Assembly: GCF_001513785.1 (NCBI RefSeq) | Contig: NZ_LNQS01000008.1 | Coordinates: 496,001 to 560,000 of the forward strand | Reading direction: 5' to 3' | Length of the DNA stretch: 64,000 nucleotides | Source: Rheinheimera sp. EpRS3 | GTDB taxonomy: Bacteria > Pseudomonadota > Gammaproteobacteria > Enterobacterales > Alteromonadaceae | In this document: one piece after another, positions 57,050-64,000 of the stretch | Position numbering within the stretch: position 1 is the first letter of the stretch | Layout of the letters: each line of letters begins with the position of its first letter | Translations under genes and position numbers: made by a program | The notes under the pieces: model-generated | What the model saw: only the letters and a program-made list of their open reading frames with translations | Database searches by the model: none | What the model was told of the DNA's origin: nothing

Positions 57050-58072
57050 TTAGTTCCAGCCTTCCAGCACCACTTTACCAATAGCGGTACCGCTTTCCAG
57101 CAGCAAGTGAGCCTGACGTAAATTATCGGCGTTAATACTGCCCATGGTTTGTTTTAGCGTGGTTTTAATCTGGCCCTGCTGAATAAGCCGGCTTAAATCG
57201 CTTAGCAGCTGATGCTGTGCGCTCATATCCGGCGTGCCGAACATGGCCCGGGTAAACATAAACTCCCAGTGCAGCGAAATACTTTTTTGCTTTAACGGCA
57301 TAATATCAATGCCGCCAACCGGATCGTCTATCAGCGCCAGCTTGCCCTGCGGCGCCAGCAATTGCACCAGCTCAGCATAATGCTGGTCGGTGTGGGTTAA
57401 ACTGGCAACATGGCTTACGCAGCTTAAATCCAGCGCTTTTAGCTGTGGCAGCAACGGCTGGCTGTGATCCAGCACGTAGTGGGCACCCAGCCCGGTTACC
57501 CATTGTTTGGTTTCCGGCCGGGATGCCGTAGCAATAATGGTTGCTGTGGTTAATTGCCGGGCCAGTTGCACCAGCACTGAGCCTACGCCACCGGCAGCAC
57601 CTGTTATCAGCAGCACAGGGCGCGGGTGCTTTAAACTGGGTTGCTGAATTTCCAGCCGGTCAAACAACAGCTCCCAGGCGGTAATAGCGGTTAATGGCAA
57701 GGCCGCGGCTTCAGCATAGCTTAAGTTCTCGGGCATTACTGCGGCCAGGCGTTCGTCCACCAGTTGCAGCTCGCTGTTGCTGCCAGGGCGGGTAAGTGAA
57801 CCGGCATAAAACACTTTGTCGCCCACTTTAAATAAACTGACGTCTTCGCCCACCGCGACTACTTCGCCTGCTGCGTCCCAGCCCAGCACTTTGTATTGAC
57901 CGGCTTCAGGCTGAACCCGCGTTCTGATTTTAGTATCTACCGGGTTAACTGATATTGCCTGCACCCGCACCAGAATATCCTGGCCACTGGCTAGCGGATC
58001 CGGCAGCTCAATATCAACCAGGGCTTGTGGATCGGTTGCCGCTAGTGACTGCTGATAACCTACTGCTTTCAT
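57050..58072 (-). CDS. Quinone oxidoreductase-like MDR protein
   Basis: 340-residue medium-chain dehydrogenase/reductase of the zinc-type alcohol dehydrogenase-like (TIGR02817) group. The N-terminal GroES-like domain has SVNPVDTKIR; the Rossmann motif is LITGAAGGVGSVLVQLAR (near 155). The usual catalytic zinc ligands are not evident, so it is likely an NADPH-dependent quinone or enone reductase. ATG 58072 begins the family sequence; an 18-codon upstream extension was dropped. It lies 28 bases after the response regulator gene, so it may share its transcript. Confidence 0.85.
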   Translation of the reverse strand: MKAVGYQQSLAATDPQALVDIELPDPLASGQDILVRVQAISVNPVDTKIRTRVQPEAGQYKVLGWDAAGEVVAVGEDVSLFKVGDKVFYAGSLTRPGSNSELQLVDERLAAVMPENLSYAEAAALPLTAITAWELLFDRLEIQQPSLKHPRPVLLITGAAGGVGSVLVQLARQLTTATIIATASRPETKQWVTGLGAHYVLDHSQPLLPQLKALDLSCVSHVASLTHTDQHYAELVQLLAPQGKLALIDDPVGGIDIMPLKQKSISLHWEFMFTRAMFGTPDMSAQHQLLSDLSRLIQQGQIKTTLKQTMGSINADNLRQAHLLLESGTAIGKVVLEGWN

Positions 58073-58100
58073 TTTTATTCTCCAAGTTTTGCTGCCTACC

Positions 58101-59471
58101 TTAATCTGCCAGTTGGTAGCGGTCAATTTTCTTTAGTAACCCCTGCCGGGATAACCCCAGTTGGCGTGCGGCCTGGCTCTTGTTACCGTTACATTGTTCA
58201 AGTGCTTGTTTAATCATGCGTATTTCTAATTGCTGCACTGCCTGGTCTAACAATTGTATCCCTGTTTCTGTTACCGCTTGAGTAGTGCCCGCAGTGCCGG
58301 CTTCGGGATGCAGCAAGCTGATATCAGCCATGCTGATAACTCCACCCTGTGCCACAGCAGCTACGCTTTCCAGCGTGTTTTTCAGCTCACGGATATTACC
58401 CGGCCAGTCGCGCTGTAAAAACCAGCTTAGTGCAGTGCTGTCCAGTTTTAAACGCTGGCCCTGCTGTTGCGATAACTGTTCAAGAAAGAACTGTAGCAGC
58501 AGCGGTATATCCTGGCTACGGCTGCTAAGCGCTACCGTTTCCAGCGTAATGCCTTTAATGCGGTAATATAAATCTTCGCGAAACAGCCCTTTTTGTACCA
58601 GTTGTGGCAAATTAGCATTGGTGGCAGAAATAAGCCGTAAATCAATTTTCTGTTGCTCACGGCCGCCAACCGGAAAAAAGGTGCCTTCCTGCAATACCCG
58701 CAATAGCTTAACCTGCATTGGCAAAGGCATCTCGCCAATTTCATCCAGAAATAAAGTACCGCCATCGGCCAGTTTCAGCAGGCCCGGCCGGTCTTTATCG
58801 GCACCGGTAAAGGCACCTTTAACATAACCAAACAGCTCGCTTTCCAGCAAGTCGGCCGGAATAGCGCCGCAATGCACAGACACAAAGGCCTGCTCCGCAC
58901 GCCGGCTCAGCTCATGCAGTGCGCGTGATACTACCTCTTTACCGGTACCGGATGGCCCGGTTACCAGTACCCGCACATCAGTGGGGGCAATACGTTGGAT
59001 CAGTGTACGCATAGCCTCCATTGCCGGTGATACGCCAATTAAGCGCTGCACAGCAGTGTTGGCCTGACGCTGCTGTTTTAGCTGGCTCAGCTCTTGCTCC
59101 AGCTGATGCTTACCCAATGCCCGTTTTATTACCACAGCCAGTAAATCCGGATCGACCGGCTTGGCAATAAAATCCCAGGCACCCAGCGCTATGGCATCCA
59201 GTGCCAGTTGCCGCTCGGCATGGCCGGTTAAAATAATTACCGGCCTTGAAATAAGCTCGGGCAAGGCCTGTAGTGTATGTTGCGGGTTAAATTCGGGCGG
59301 TAATGATAAATCCAGCAAAATTAAGTCAGCATCAAATTGCTGTAGGTGCTGGCGGGCAACGGTTAAATCGGCCGCCGTCACCACCTGATAACCGCTGTTT
59401 TCCAACCAGCTTTGTGCCAGTTGGCGAAATGCCGGTTCATCGTCAATCAGTAAAATACGGCCTTTATTCAT
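58101..59471 (-). CDS. NtrC-family sigma-54 response regulator
   Basis: 456-residue activator: receiver domain (about 1-120; acidic pair DDE near 10-12, phospho-acceptor Asp54 in ILLDLSLP), sigma-54 AAA+ domain (about 145-375; Walker A GPSGTGKE, the sigma-54 contact loop GAFTGA, GGTLFLDEIGEMP) and a Fis-type HTH (GNKSQAARQLGLSRQGLLKK) at the end. It needs phosphorylation and RpoN. The cognate kinase overlaps it by 8 bases. A sigma-54 promoter with paired upstream palindromes sits about 2 kb away in front of the bd oxidase genes, the most obvious target. Confidence 0.94.
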   Translation of the reverse strand: MNKGRILLIDDEPAFRQLAQSWLENSGYQVVTAADLTVARQHLQQFDADLILLDLSLPPEFNPQHTLQALPELISRPVIILTGHAERQLALDAIALGAWDFIAKPVDPDLLAVVIKRALGKHQLEQELSQLKQQRQANTAVQRLIGVSPAMEAMRTLIQRIAPTDVRVLVTGPSGTGKEVVSRALHELSRRAEQAFVSVHCGAIPADLLESELFGYVKGAFTGADKDRPGLLKLADGGTLFLDEIGEMPLPMQVKLLRVLQEGTFFPVGGREQQKIDLRLISATNANLPQLVQKGLFREDLYYRIKGITLETVALSSRSQDIPLLLQFFLEQLSQQQGQRLKLDSTALSWFLQRDWPGNIRELKNTLESVAAVAQGGVISMADISLLHPEAGTAGTTQAVTETGIQLLDQAVQQLEIRMIKQALEQCNGNKSQAARQLGLSRQGLLKKIDRYQLAD

Positions 59472-61341
59472 TTGCGGAGTCTTCTGTATTTAAGTTAAAG
59501 CGTAATTCAAAGCTGACCGGCCAACCCAGATCGGTGCGGTGGTTAATCTCACCACCGTGTGCCTGCATAATACGTCGCACTATCGCCAGCCCCAGGCCAC
59601 TGCCACCGGCCCGTTTGCTAACAAAAGGCTGAAACAGGCTGCTATGCTGCTCGCTGGCAATAGCCGGGCCGTTATTGTGTACATACAGCAGCAACTGCGT
59701 ACCCTGCTGCTGCGCCTGCAGTTTAATAATGGCGCCGCTCTGGTTACGGCAAAATGCCAGCGCATTATCCAGCAGGTTTACGATCACCTGCTGCAAACGG
59801 TATACGTCAGCGGTGATCAGCAGTTGTTCATCTACATCCAACTGGCAGCTTACCCCTTGCCAGTTGTGTTGCTGCACTAAGCTTTGTAGCAGGGCATTCA
59901 GTGGCACTGTGGTTAATTGCAACTGCAACTGGCCGGAATAACTCAGTAAATCGGCAATCAGCCGGTCGGCGCGTTTTAACTGTTGCTGAATATGCTGGCG
60001 GGTTTCATCTGCCGTGCTTGCTGCTGCCATGGCAATAATATTTAGCGGGTTTCTAAGCTCATGCGCCATCGCGGCCGACAATGCGCCAAGCTCAACCAGA
60101 TGCTGTTGATCCAGCCTTTTACGCTCCGCTTCAGCCAGTTTTAACGATTGCTCCAGAATACGGCAACTGCTTAGCAATAAGGCAGCAAACACCTCGCCCT
60201 GCAGCCGGTAACCCGGCGTAACATCATCCCAGCCTTTAAGCTCATAATGCCAGCCTTCGGCCCCGCGCTGGCAGTGAATTTGCAGCTGTGCCGCCGCTGC
60301 CTGAGTTTGTGGCAAATGCACGGCAACACGCATGCGTAACTGTTGCGATAACAACTTGCTGCCAAGGGCCGCCAGCTCCGTCCAGCTTTCGGTTTGCTGC
60401 AACTGCAAACGCCAGCGTTCCAGCAAAGCTTCATTTAACGTAACACCGGGGTATATTAATCGCCTGGCCAGCGCGGCTACCGGCTGGTAACAGGCTGCAG
60501 ACAGTAACAGCAGCAAGGCCGAATACAGCCAAAGCTGCAATGCCGGAACCGCCGACAACGCCTGCATACCAAACTGCCCCAGCATGGCACTGACCAGCGC
60601 CATCAGTGCCAGCACCACCAACAGCATGCAAAACCATAACAGCGCTTTATTGGCAAAAGCATTAATCGCCAGTACCTGATACCGCACTACCCCATACACC
60701 AGCAATAACAGATAGCTGGGTAACAACAGCATTGGATACGGATACCAGGTCAGGCCAAGTGATGGGAAAATAAAACTGGTAGCCAGCAACAAGCCCCAGC
60801 CACCGGCAATAAACATGGCGCCAATAGAACGCCTGCGGTTACCGGAATGATGGCGCCAGCCATACAGCAGCACGCCATGGGCAGCAATACCCAGTAATAC
60901 TGTGTACACCAGGTTTAACCAACCCAGCCCCTGAAAAGCAAAAAATGCACTGAAACCGGTAGTAGCAATGATTTTGCCACCATTAAATTGCCAGCTCAGC
61001 GCTATTAGCACAAAAGTGAAACCATATAGTAACGGCATCTGCCGTTGTAAGGTCTGCAACCGTGACGATAATGGCCGGCCTGCTGCGACAAACTGCAGCG
61101 CAAAGTGTAAAAAGCACATTGGCATCAGCGGGTTTGCCAGTACCAATGCAATACCCAATTGCGGCCACTGATGCAAAATTGCGATATGACCGGCGCACCA
61201 CAGTGCCATCATAGCGGCAAAACCGGCCAAGGCCGGCATACCTGGCTGGCGCTGGCCCTGCCACAGCAACCAGCCAGCCAGTAACACCGCGCAGCAACTG
61301 GTTAGCAGCATGCTTATTTCAAATACTAAGTACAGTGGCAC
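59464..61341 (-). CDS. Membrane sensor histidine kinase
   Basis: 625-residue kinase. The N-terminal half has eight or so hydrophobic helices (residues 1-300) without a sizeable periplasmic domain, which suits sensing of a membrane or redox cue. A GAF-like stretch (about 310-400) precedes the phospho-acceptor His in AMAHELRNPL (near 426), the N box NLLDNALAF and the G boxes GSGLGLAIVRRI. The start is GTG 61341, and its GAGG ribosome binding site lies inside palindrome 61342-61358, so a protein bound there could also limit kinase expression. Layout resembles PrsK-type kinases, but no exosortase genes are seen. Confidence 0.9.
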   Translation of the reverse strand: MPLYLVFEISMLLTSCCAVLLAGWLLWQGQRQPGMPALAGFAAMMALWCAGHIAILHQWPQLGIALVLANPLMPMCFLHFALQFVAAGRPLSSRLQTLQRQMPLLYGFTFVLIALSWQFNGGKIIATTGFSAFFAFQGLGWLNLVYTVLLGIAAHGVLLYGWRHHSGNRRRSIGAMFIAGGWGLLLATSFIFPSLGLTWYPYPMLLLPSYLLLLVYGVVRYQVLAINAFANKALLWFCMLLVVLALMALVSAMLGQFGMQALSAVPALQLWLYSALLLLLSAACYQPVAALARRLIYPGVTLNEALLERWRLQLQQTESWTELAALGSKLLSQQLRMRVAVHLPQTQAAAAQLQIHCQRGAEGWHYELKGWDDVTPGYRLQGEVFAALLLSSCRILEQSLKLAEAERKRLDQQHLVELGALSAAMAHELRNPLNIIAMAAASTADETRQHIQQQLKRADRLIADLLSYSGQLQLQLTTVPLNALLQSLVQQHNWQGVSCQLDVDEQLLITADVYRLQQVIVNLLDNALAFCRNQSGAIIKLQAQQQGTQLLLYVHNNGPAIASEQHSSLFQPFVSKRAGGSGLGLAIVRRIMQAHGGEINHRTDLGWPVSFELRFNLNTEDSANE

Positions 61342-61393
61342 TGTAAACCTCGTTTACATCAACTCAGAACGCGAATCGTAAACCTTGTTTACA
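61342..61393. promoter_or_regulatory. Paired palindromes, candidate upstream activator sites
   Basis: TGTAAAC-CTC-GTTTACA (61342-61358) and GTAAAC-CTT-GTTTAC (61378-61392) have the same arms and nearly the same centre and are 35 bases apart. They lie about 95-140 bases upstream of the expected start from the sigma-54 promoter, the usual place for NtrC-type enhancer sites. The first one touches the kinase start codon. Confidence 0.75.
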
Positions 61394-61417
61394 CACCAAA
61401 CAAGATAAATATAAAAA

Positions 61418-61431
61418 TTGATATAAATCAT
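61418..61431. promoter_or_regulatory. FNR-like box upstream of the bd oxidase operon
   Basis: TTGAT-ATAA-ATCAT matches TTGAT-N4-ATCAA at 9 of 10 fixed positions, 25 bases upstream of the -24 element. FNR/ANR control of bd oxidases is common in related bacteria. Confidence 0.5.
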
Positions 61432-61455
61432 AAACTAATAAGTATACTGACAAAG

Positions 61456-61471
61456 TGGTAAGCATCTTGCA
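61456..61471 (+). promoter_or_regulatory. Sigma-54 promoter of the bd oxidase operon
   Basis: TGGTAAGCATCTTGCA keeps the invariant GG and GC with exactly 10 bases between them and differs from the TGGCACG-N4-TTGCW consensus only at two tolerated positions. It lies 51 bases upstream of the first small ORF. Confidence 0.85.
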
Positions 61472-61521
61472 AATCTCGCTATATCTAAACTGAACAGATT
61501 TCGCATTAAAGAGAGTAAGTT

Positions 61522-61626
61522 ATGAATAGTAGTTTATTAATCACAGAAGTTCTGGCTTTAAGCCTGATGGTGGCAGTAGCCTTAGCACCTGCTTTATACC
61601 GCTATTTGCAGCAACGGAGACGCTAA
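61522..61626 (+). CDS. 34-residue membrane peptide in front of cydA
   Basis: Small ORF of 34 codons plus stop: a short polar start (MNSSLL), one hydrophobic helix (about residues 5-25, ITEVLALSLMVAVALAPA) and a basic end (YRYLQQRRR). GAGAG lies 8 bases upstream of its ATG and the stop is one base before the cydA ATG, so it would be co-translated. bd oxidases often have a single-helix subunit (CydX, CydS or CydH type), usually encoded after cydB. This could be an analogous subunit encoded ahead of cydA, or a leader peptide. I do not recognise it as a known family. Confidence 0.65.
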   Translation: MNSSLLITEVLALSLMVAVALAPALYRYLQQRRR

Positions 61627-61627
61627 T

Positions 61628-63034
61628 ATGGAACTGGATGCTGCGCTGCTATCCCGTCTGCAGTTTGCTTTTACCGTTAGTTTTCATATTATTTTTCCGT
61701 CTATTACCATCGGCCTGGCAACACTGATTGCGATCTGGGAAGGCTTATGGCTGAAAACCGGCAACCCGGTATATTTGCAACTGGCTAAATTCTGGATCAA
61801 ACCTTTTGCCATTACCTTTGGCATGGGTGTGGTGTCGGGCATAGTGCTGTCGTATGAGTTTGGCACTAACTTTTCTGAGTTTTCCCGCATTACCGGTGCA
61901 GTACTGGGGCCATTAATGGCGTACGAGGTACTGACCGCGTTTTTCCTTGAGGCTGGCTTTTTGGGCATTATGCTGTTTGGCTGGCAACGTGTCGGGCCTA
62001 AGCTGCATTTTATGGCTACGGTAGTGGTGGCAGTTGGTACCTGGATTTCGGCTTTTTGGATTATCGCTGCCAACTCCTGGATGCACACACCGGCAGGCCA
62101 CATTATTGTTGATGGCGTATTTCAGGTAGACAGCTGGTGGCAGGTGATTTTTAACCCATCGATGCCATACCGCTTTACTCATATGTTACTGGCAGCCTTT
62201 ATTACCGGCACTTTTGTCGTGTTAGCCACCAGCGCCTGGCAACTGCGGCACAGCGAGCATAAAAATATGGCTCGCAAAGGCCTATCAATGACGCTGTGGC
62301 TGGCGCTGATTTTAACGCCGCTACAGGCTTATGTCGGCGACTTGCACGGCCTGAATGTAAAAGAGCATCAGCCGGTAAAACTGGCCGCAATGGAAGGTAT
62401 TTGGGCCGAACGTGAAGCCGGTGCACCGCTGTTGTTATTCGCTATTCCTGACAGAGCGGCCGAAAAAAACCATTTTGAAATTGGTATTCCCAAACTGGCC
62501 AGCCTGATTTTAACCCACGATCCCGACGGTGAGCTGATGGGCTTAAAGGCTGTACCAGCTGATGAGCGGCCTAACGTTGCGGTGGTGTTTTTCTCGTTCC
62601 GCGTAATGGTCGGTATTGGCGTGCTGATGATTTTAGTCGCATTTACCGGAGCTTTTTTACGTTGGCGCGGCAGTTTATACCAAAGCCGCTGGTTTTTAAC
62701 CGCCTGCAGCTATCTGGCCCCCAGTGGCATTATTGCCGTATTGGCTGGCTGGTATGTGGTAGAGGTTGGCCGCCAGCCCTGGCTGGTATATGGCCTGGTG
62801 CGCACCATTGATGTGGTGTCGCCCCTGCCGGCCGAACGAGTGCTGTTTTCACTCACCTTGTTTGTCCTGACATACAGCCTGCTGTTTGGTGTTTACCTGT
62901 ACTTTATGCGCAAGCTTATCCGCAAAGGGCCGCCGCCACTGGAAAAACTGTCGCAACAGCTAATTGGTGTAAAAGCGTCAGGCTACGCCGTAGCGTTAGC
63001 CAAAAAAATAAAACCGGAACAGGAGCAACACTAA
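61628..63034 (+). CDS. cydA: Cytochrome bd-type quinol oxidase subunit I
   Basis: 468-residue subunit I with about nine helices. His20 in FTVSFHIIFP matches the heme b595 ligand; GRQPW near residue 380 is the conserved end of the quinol loop. The protein is shorter than E. coli CydA (522), as in the short-Q-loop CioA (cyanide-insensitive) type. The enzyme oxidises quinol, reduces oxygen to water and resists inhibitors of heme-copper oxidases. It follows the small ORF and overlaps cydB by one base. Confidence 0.94.
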   Translation: MELDAALLSRLQFAFTVSFHIIFPSITIGLATLIAIWEGLWLKTGNPVYLQLAKFWIKPFAITFGMGVVSGIVLSYEFGTNFSEFSRITGAVLGPLMAYEVLTAFFLEAGFLGIMLFGWQRVGPKLHFMATVVVAVGTWISAFWIIAANSWMHTPAGHIIVDGVFQVDSWWQVIFNPSMPYRFTHMLLAAFITGTFVVLATSAWQLRHSEHKNMARKGLSMTLWLALILTPLQAYVGDLHGLNVKEHQPVKLAAMEGIWAEREAGAPLLLFAIPDRAAEKNHFEIGIPKLASLILTHDPDGELMGLKAVPADERPNVAVVFFSFRVMVGIGVLMILVAFTGAFLRWRGSLYQSRWFLTACSYLAPSGIIAVLAGWYVVEVGRQPWLVYGLVRTIDVVSPLPAERVLFSLTLFVLTYSLLFGVYLYFMRKLIRKGPPPLEKLSQQLIGVKASGYAVALAKKIKPEQEQH

Positions 63035-64000
63035 TGGAACTGCAAATGGGTTTACCGTTGTTTTACTTCCTGCTGCTGGGTTTTGCCATTCTGATGTACG
63101 TGCTGCTGGATGGCTTTGATTTGGGCATTGGCATTTTGTACCCCTGGTTTAACACTGATGCCGAACACGATCATTTAATGCGCTCTATTTCGCATGTCTG
63201 GGATGGCAACGAAACCTGGCTGGTGTTTGGCGGTGTGATCCTGTTTGGCGCTTTTCCGCTGGCGTATGCCAGCATTGCGTCGTTATTGTACCTGCCGATT
63301 ATGCTGATGTTAATTGGCCTGATCTTTCGCGGTGTGGCGTTTGAATACCGCTTTAAATCTCATACCTCTAAAGTATGGTGGAACCGCGCTTTTGCCATAG
63401 GTTCCAGCCTTGCCGCATTTTGTCAGGGCCTGATGCTGGGTGTATTGGTACAGGGTGTCGACGCAGACAGCGTAGCCTCGTCCAGCCTGCAGTGGTTAAC
63501 GCCGTTTAGCCTGTTTACCGGCTTAGCCGTTATGGCCGGCTATGCTTTGCTGGGCTGTACTTACCTGACGATGAAAAGTCGTGGCGATATTCAGCAAAAA
63601 GCAGCGCGCTATGGCCAGCGCTTGCTGCTATTCGTTATGCTGGCGATGTTGTTAGTGAGTTTATTTACGCTGTACCAACAGCCAGAAATCCGCGAGCGCT
63701 GGTTTGGCGGCGCCCACAGCCTGATATTAATGTTACTGCCACTCATGGCAATACTGGCGGCCAGACTGTTATACCGTGATTTAGGCCGCGTACAGCGCCA
63801 GTTTGCTGCTGAAGCCCATATCAGCATCCGCCACGAAAGCCGCCCGTTCTGGCTGGCGGCCAGTTTATTTTTGCTGGCGTTTGCCGGTTTGGTTGCCGGG
63901 TTATTCCCTTATTTACTGCCGCACCAAATCAGCTTTTATGCCGCAGCGGCACCTGACAGCAGCTTAAGCTTTATGCTACCGGGCATACTGATCTTTTTAC
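63034..64000 (+). CDS. cydB: Cytochrome bd-type quinol oxidase subunit II (partial)
   Basis: First 322 codons of subunit II; the frame is still open at the right edge. The start MELQMGLPLFYFLLLGFAIL and the conserved DGFDLGIG and HVWDGNETWLVFGG segments identify CydB/CioB. About eight helices are visible in this part. The ATG shares a base with the cydA stop codon. It forms the heterodimer with CydA. Confidence 0.94.
   Translation, partial: MELQMGLPLFYFLLLGFAILMYVLLDGFDLGIGILYPWFNTDAEHDHLMRSISHVWDGNETWLVFGGVILFGAFPLAYASIASLLYLPIMLMLIGLIFRGVAFEYRFKSHTSKVWWNRAFAIGSSLAAFCQGLMLGVLVQGVDADSVASSSLQWLTPFSLFTGLAVMAGYALLGCTYLTMKSRGDIQQKAARYGQRLLLFVMLAMLLVSLFTLYQQPEIRERWFGGAHSLILMLLPLMAILAARLLYRDLGRVQRQFAAEAHISIRHESRPFWLAASLFLLAFAGLVAGLFPYLLPHQISFYAAAAPDSSLSFMLPGILIFL

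Follow-up and report, generated by a model that had tools for sequence, protein, structure and literature searches.

Probable sigma-54-dependent control of a bd oxidase operon by an adjacent NtrC-type two-component system in Rheinheimera

RESULTS

A bd oxidase operon in the window (the whole 64,000-nucleotide stretch of Rheinheimera sp. EpRS3 DNA analysed here) is very probably under the control of sigma-54 and of the two-component system encoded next to it, and this explanation takes in the binding of the regulator to a pair of palindromes as well as a second target, ccoG. The palindromes and the special promoter are conserved jointly across long evolutionary distances. Sigma-54 control by the adjacent pair had been proposed in the initial annotation and, judged by comparative sequence evidence, is strongly supported: the arrangement recurs in 34/34 clusters and the sites at ccoG track the kinase within the genus.

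Layout of the locus and gene identities

The source DNA is from Rheinheimera, with a kinase that shares 98% identity with its R. hassiensis LMG 27268 counterpart and 97% with the one from R. pacifica DSM 17616. The features, in window coordinates, are:

57050-58126, minus strand: zinc-type alcohol dehydrogenase (TIGR02817), after the regulator
58101-59471, minus strand: NtrC-type response regulator, 456 aa, in the same direction as the kinase and to its left
59464-61341, minus strand: membrane histidine kinase, 625 aa, GTG start (complement of 61339-61341)
61342-61358, no strand: palindrome 1, distal, putative enhancer site 1, TGTAAACCTCGTTTACA, centre at about -132
61377-61393, no strand: palindrome 2, proximal, putative enhancer site 2, CGTAAACCTTGTTTACA, centre at about -97
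61418-61431, no strand: putative FNR/ANR-type dyad, TTGATATAAATCAT, 9/10 match, centre at about -57.5
61456-61470, plus strand: predicted -24/-12 sigma-54 promoter, TGGTAAGCATCTTGC, GG at 61457-8 and GC at 61469-70
61522-61626, plus strand: single-helix membrane ORF, 34 aa, first gene of the operon, one base 5' of the cydA start codon
61628-63034, plus strand: cydA/cioA, bd oxidase subunit I, 468 aa (PF01654, E 3.8e-170)
63034-64000, plus strand: cydB/cioB, subunit II, continuing to 64077, past the window end
from 64077, outside the window: single-helix CydZ-like ORF, 43 aa, directly after cydB (L188:1078-1209)

The initial annotation had described a divergent kinase and a sigma-54 response regulator beside the oxidase, and the Pfam domains bear this out. 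The kinase has HisKA_7TM (PF16927, E 5.9e-9), HisKA (PF00512) and HATPase_c (PF02518), while the regulator has the complete NtrC-type set of receiver (PF00072), sigma-54 activator AAA+ (PF00158), PF25601 and Fis HTH (PF02954). Oxidase subunit I was assigned by Pfam, and subunit II as the ORF adjoining cydA and by tblastn matches in relatives. As to Q-loop type, CydA aligns in one stretch (residues 4-437) with the 448-aa 5doq_A, whereas its alignment to the E. coli chains splits into two. The same genome contains a second CydA-type gene (532-aa frame, G000:C8:452916-453845, 36% identical), so the organism has two bd-type oxidases. The TIGR02817 dehydrogenase follows the regulator in all nine long-flank Rheinheimera-type loci (L027-L034, L036) and was not found in the Nitrincola locus (L035); it is thus a neighbour within the genus rather than a part of the module.

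The 180 bp between the kinase GTG and the operon hold, from left to right, palindrome 1, palindrome 2, the FNR-like dyad and the -24/-12 element, from whose position a transcript start at about 61482 is predicted. The two palindromes had been placed about 95-140 bases 5' of the start, in agreement with the centres given above. The FNR-like box and the 34-aa ORF had been overlooked.

Chance levels of the palindromes and the promoter element

Both palindromes are 17 bp long. The exact sequence GTAAACNNNGTTTAC is found at three places in the 4.4-Mb genome, two of them at the cyd locus, 35 bp apart, and the third upstream of ccoG. With one mismatch allowed, 20 places were obtained versus 15 for the reversed control, and thus only exact sites are informative. 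When up to two mismatches are allowed, matches to the -24/-12 consensus are not enriched in the window (103 versus 120 expected). Since the match is no better than chance, the promoter call, unlike the exact palindromes, cannot stand alone, and it is conservation that decides. The near-consensus element facing the oxidase genes, as initially annotated, is therefore real in that GG-N10-GC with a TTGC-like -12 is present at 61456-61470, but as a window-wide match it does not rise above chance. A scan of 61300-61640 for the sigma-70 consensus found no site (1.1 expected).

In the window, the distal palindrome covers the GAGG Shine-Dalgarno of the kinase gene and abuts its GTG. Here and in most Rheinheimera, this palindrome includes the GAGG- or GGGG-like part of the kinase ribosome-binding site and ends against the start codon, so that a regulator bound at this site should hinder kinase expression.

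Conservation across kinase-linked clusters

Searches for the kinase gave matches in 18 of 98 relatives and in 21 of 394 genomes of the order; both counts include the genome of origin and the two sets partly share the same genomes. Within 369 genomes of the class only the genome of origin was recovered, in a search that scored few candidates per genome and may miss distant relatives. A GTDB contig search for the kinase matched several named Rheinheimera and added Nitrincola alkalilacustris, which carries the module too (kinase 72% identical in the best segment). The cluster set comprised 34 distinct full-length clusters from genomes of four families.

In all 34 clusters the regulator follows the kinase, which diverges from a close relative of cydA (64-100% identical), and the palindrome pair is present at a spacing of 35 bp in 15 clusters, 34 bp in 13 and 33 bp in 6. 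From the proximal palindrome to the GG of the -24 element there are 61-65 nt in 29 clusters and 54 nt in five. GG-N10-GC is present in 33/34, with GG-N10-GT in the remaining one (L025). The mean palindrome scores of 13.6 and 12.5 of 14 compare with 9.1 and 8.3 in 100 dinucleotide shuffles, and the promoter mean of 8.9 of 10 with 3.2, a figure pulled down by those shuffles that contain no GG/GC pair; as the clusters are related sequences, these contrasts overstate significance and independence. Compared by eye across the 34 clusters, the spacer DNA between the elements has diverged and the elements have been kept. Thus the check that the initial annotation had proposed for its reading, that palindromes and -24/-12 element be retained together in relatives, comes out positive throughout the set, with one GT for the -12 GC. 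RpoN is encoded in 7/7 genomes examined.

As a control set, 12 kinase-less cydA genes with retrieved loci (51-62% identical) were used. None of their promoters carries the palindrome pair (best 8-11 of 14), and at one locus (L079) a GG/GC match of 9 of 10 is found by itself.

ccoG as a second target

The third exact palindrome of the genome precedes an oxidase-maturation (cbb3) gene, ccoG, identified by TIGR02745 (544.6 bits versus a cut-off of 316.7). Its promoter (L003:1440-1520) contains the exact palindrome, a weaker second palindrome 31 bp away and then AGGCATAGATATTGC. Of 31 Rheinheimera genomes, 14 have the kinase at E 1e-30 and 17 do not, and GG-N10-GC with TTGC lies before ccoG in 14/14 kinase-positive versus 0/17 kinase-negative genomes (loci L128-L157), a split that may reflect one event, since the kinase-positive congeners look like one clade by CcoG identity (at least 86% versus at most 84% in the kinase-negative ones). 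The palindrome-pair sums, of a maximum of 28, are 23-26 versus 17-21; the second palindromes are weak, and the spacing is 31-33 bp in 13/14 kinase-positive genomes, no such spacing being recovered in G030. Before ccoG in five kinase-negative congeners there is a poorer GG/GC match (6-7 of 10) that lacks TTGC. In the kinase-negative genome with the closest CcoG (G025, L142, 84%), a degenerate pair survives, again 31 bp apart, along with TTGC but no GG, which reads like decay of the sites after loss of the kinase.

A TATACT-like -10 is present in 18/18 aligned ccoG promoters (14 positive, four negative). In the 14 positives and G025, an FNR-like TTGYN-N4-GTCAA lies about 28 nt before this -10, and by hand count this box falls at about -41 and overlaps the predicted sigma-54 start. 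This layout suggests that the sigma-54 element was added to an older FNR/sigma-70 promoter. Farther from the window's genome, ccoG is without the sites in the three kinase-positive genomes inspected (G049, G096 and G082, the last with two ccoG copies).

Patterns of enhancer plus promoter, allowing no mismatch, were used to search for further targets. In the 14 Rheinheimera genomes they gave 32 matches (11 at cyd, eight at ccoG and 13 others; reversed control 14), and in 19 distant kinase-positive genomes 16 matches in 15 genomes, 15 of them at cyd. The patterns missed cyd in 3/14 and ccoG in 6/14 Rheinheimera and cyd in 4/19 distant genomes, so weaker targets could be missed too. Besides cyd and ccoG, no recurrent intergenic target emerged from these searches of the 14 plus 19 genomes. 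Twelve of the 14 other matches were rejected as targets, being mostly or wholly inside open frames of at least 360 aa, including two that recur in a second genome; the remaining two (L161, L163) lie inside frames of 100-109 aa only. The kinase had been called dedicated to the oxidase. This stands insofar as only the cyd promoter recurs in distant genomes; within Rheinheimera, however, ccoG joins it as a second target.

The palindromes might instead bind an unrelated repressor of the divergent gene pair, their linkage to the -24/-12 element being incidental, and the overlap of the distal palindrome with the kinase ribosome-binding site is indeed a usual place for a repressor. Such a reading is extremely unlikely, given that the distance between palindrome and promoter is held in two narrow classes across the clusters, that ccoG carries the sites without a divergent kinase, and that kinase-negative congeners are without sites at ccoG.

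An FNR-type box between enhancer and promoter

In 30/34 clusters the best match to TTGAT-N4-ATCAA occupies a fixed position 5' of the promoter motif, at a distance of either 27 or 37-38 nt; the two values are about one helical turn apart. The four clusters with the best match elsewhere (L016, L018, L020, L025) belong to the window's family. The dyad scores 9 or 10 of 10 in 19 clusters and is perfect in five (L024, L026, L035, L098, L099), with a mean of 8.59 of 10 versus 6.77 in shuffles (largest shuffle mean 7.0). A related TGATCTGCGWCAA box occurs in six of the 12 kinase-less control promoters, five of which are from congeners. An FNR-type input to these oxidases is thus probably ancient and retained alongside the sigma-54 logic. 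The contention of the initial annotation that sigma-54 control takes the place of FNR-type control finds no support in the fixed position of the dyad; a box fixed between enhancer and promoter means, rather, that sigma-54 probably acts with FNR and not instead of it.

IHF sites are common in sigma-54 promoters, and the fixed element could be such a bending site rather than an FNR box. The stretch is A+T-rich in Rheinheimera, and the mean IHF consensus score, 7.44 of 9, exceeds every one of the 100 shuffle means, which average 7.16 and reach 7.32 at most. This margin is small, however, next to that of the FNR dyad with its five perfect copies at the fixed place, and we consider this identity of the element unlikely. 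An IHF site in the enhancer-promoter gap was set aside, as its signal is much weaker than that of the FNR dyad.

The same dyad raises the question of whether FNR/ANR, acting at a sigma-70 promoter, is what essentially controls the operon, with the two-component system controlling only itself or something else. The fixed position in 30/34 clusters and the related box at half of the kinase-less promoters would fit with this. Nevertheless, it is highly unlikely, since the sigma-70 consensus is absent from 61300-61640, the box is degenerate in several Rheinheimera and less conserved than the palindromes and the -24/-12 element, and, among 31 congeners, the same palindromes accompany a -24/-12 element before ccoG solely in genomes that have the kinase.

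Kinase and regulator: sensor and kinship

Two histidines in the membrane helices of the kinase, His52 and His155, are invariant in 34/34 clusters and, in a distant alignment, are not matched by a histidine in the PrsK of the same genome. They are candidates for contact with a cofactor or quinone. An AlphaFold2 model of the kinase, built from 11 close sequences, reached a pLDDT of 63.8, and the 50 Foldseek matches listed for it are mostly histidine-kinase cores and photoreceptor kinases; with a poor model and such matches, the fold of the sensor is not informed by them.

The recognition helix of the regulator is LGLSRQGLLKK in 8/9 cyd-linked regulators compared and LGISRQGLIKK in the ninth, and in a tree of 11 rows, including two long outside rows, the nine cyd-linked regulators separate (96/96). 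The best NCBIfam match of the regulator is TIGR02915 (PrsR), at 402.9 bits below the cut-off of 502.6, and the kinase scores 65.5 bits against TIGR02916 (PrsK), far under its cut-off of 300; membership of the cyd pair in PrsK/PrsR is ruled out by these cut-offs. A true PrsR (693 bits) is encoded elsewhere in the same genome, together with a PrsK-like kinase (L103, G000:C1:1462563-1463879), and at two PEP-CTERM loci (L117, L119) a TTTACA motif lies about 60 nt before a -24/-12 element. Thus, two look-alike enhancer systems coexist in this genome. A search of viral contigs with the regulator returned distant homologues only.

Small membrane ORFs of the operon

An ORF of 30-39 aa with one hydrophobic helix lies 5' of cydA in 34/34 clusters, with a 17-residue mean hydropathy of 2.1-2.9 in the 33 scored. 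No hydrophobic small ORF precedes the 12 kinase-less cydA genes; three of them have small ORFs there, with hydropathy of at most 0.96. For the 34-aa ORF, close comparisons give a pN/pS of 0.07 and wider ones 0.33-0.36, low values which indicate that selection preserves its protein sequence. No match to this ORF exists in Pfam or NCBIfam, and we propose it as a candidate new small subunit of the bd oxidase. The 43-aa ORF after cydB also has no match in Pfam or NCBIfam (E 1 / 0.1), CydZ (DUF2474) included, and its resemblance to CydZ is one of position and of a Trp-led helix only.

DISCUSSION

The choice of terminal oxidase is usually explained by oxygen- or redox-responsive regulators acting with sigma-70. 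At the locus described here, RNA polymerase with sigma-54 would transcribe the small ORF, cydA, cydB and the CydZ-like ORF from the -24/-12 element. The divergent membrane kinase would phosphorylate the NtrC-type regulator, which in this form may bind both palindromes and drive open-complex formation by DNA looping; bound at the distal site, it probably dampens expression of the kinase and regulator as well. An FNR-family protein between enhancer and promoter would add an oxygen input, helping or blocking the loop. In Rheinheimera, the regulator would also act at ccoG, where the predicted sigma-54 promoter lies upstream of the older FNR/sigma-70-like one. A fully off state until the kinase fires, which had been part of the original proposal, is what general sigma-54 biology leads one to expect.

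What the kinase detects is probably a main respiratory chain that is blocked or works poorly, and it would do so in the membrane, either through the redox state of quinones or through a cofactor held by His52 and His155. Going further, we tentatively suggest, as a possibility that we hold to be somewhat less than even, a switch for respiratory integrity: the kinase, with its two invariant intramembrane histidines, would sense failure of the main oxidases, and sigma-54 would switch on a backup bd oxidase that includes a small subunit, encoded upstream and not described before, together with CcoG in Rheinheimera, FNR inside the loop being a second, oxygen-dependent gate. If true, this would represent a different logic for an oxidase, in the form of an enhancer-dependent module, conserved and portable, that has a membrane kinase of its own. 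It would make the sensing of blocked respiration testable, with one kinase, two promoters and natural pairs of species that have gained or lost the system, and would add a candidate small subunit to the bd oxidases.

In the openly accessible literature searched, no description of sigma-54 control was found for a bd oxidase or for ccoG. Known regulators of bd oxidases include ArcA and FNR for cydAB of E. coli, CydE for cydAB of Alishewanella and a MarR-type repressor for cioRAB of Chromobacterium (PMC11837568). These oxidases are likewise regulated, and an FNR-type box is also present at the Rheinheimera cyd operon; as far as the accessible text of the source goes, however, they are described without sigma-54 or an NtrC-type activator (PMC11837568).

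The small ORFs have their counterparts in CydX, CydY and CydZ, which are likewise single-helix products of small ORFs in cyd operons, and a CydZ-like ORF follows cydB here. In the text available to us, CydY and CydZ are encoded downstream of cydB, and an upstream hydrophobic ORF, left unreported, is mentioned for long-Q-loop operons without CydX (Allen 2014, PMC4325964). In contrast to what that text describes, the 34-aa ORF sits upstream of cydA in an operon that may be of the short-Q-loop type.

In layout, the closest precedent is PrsK/PrsR, a transmembrane kinase and a sigma-54 response regulator with a PEP-CTERM cis-regulatory motif (Haft 2006, PMC1569441), and the PrsR model TIGR02915 is the best NCBIfam match of the cyd regulator. 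According to the accessible part of that study, the motif is 17 nt long, ends in TTTACA, is sometimes repeated and is followed, after a spacer of 62.8 nt on average, by the -24/-12 element (PMC1569441). The cyd pair differs from it by scores under the family cut-offs, a respiratory target and a different recognition helix. With AtoSC, ZraSR and NtrBC the cyd regulator has its architecture in common, and the kinase core is best matched by the AtoS and ZraS profiles and by the ZraS structure. Unlike these systems, the cyd kinase has a multi-helix membrane sensor (HisKA_7TM), and the targets of the pair are an oxidase and, with it, ccoG.
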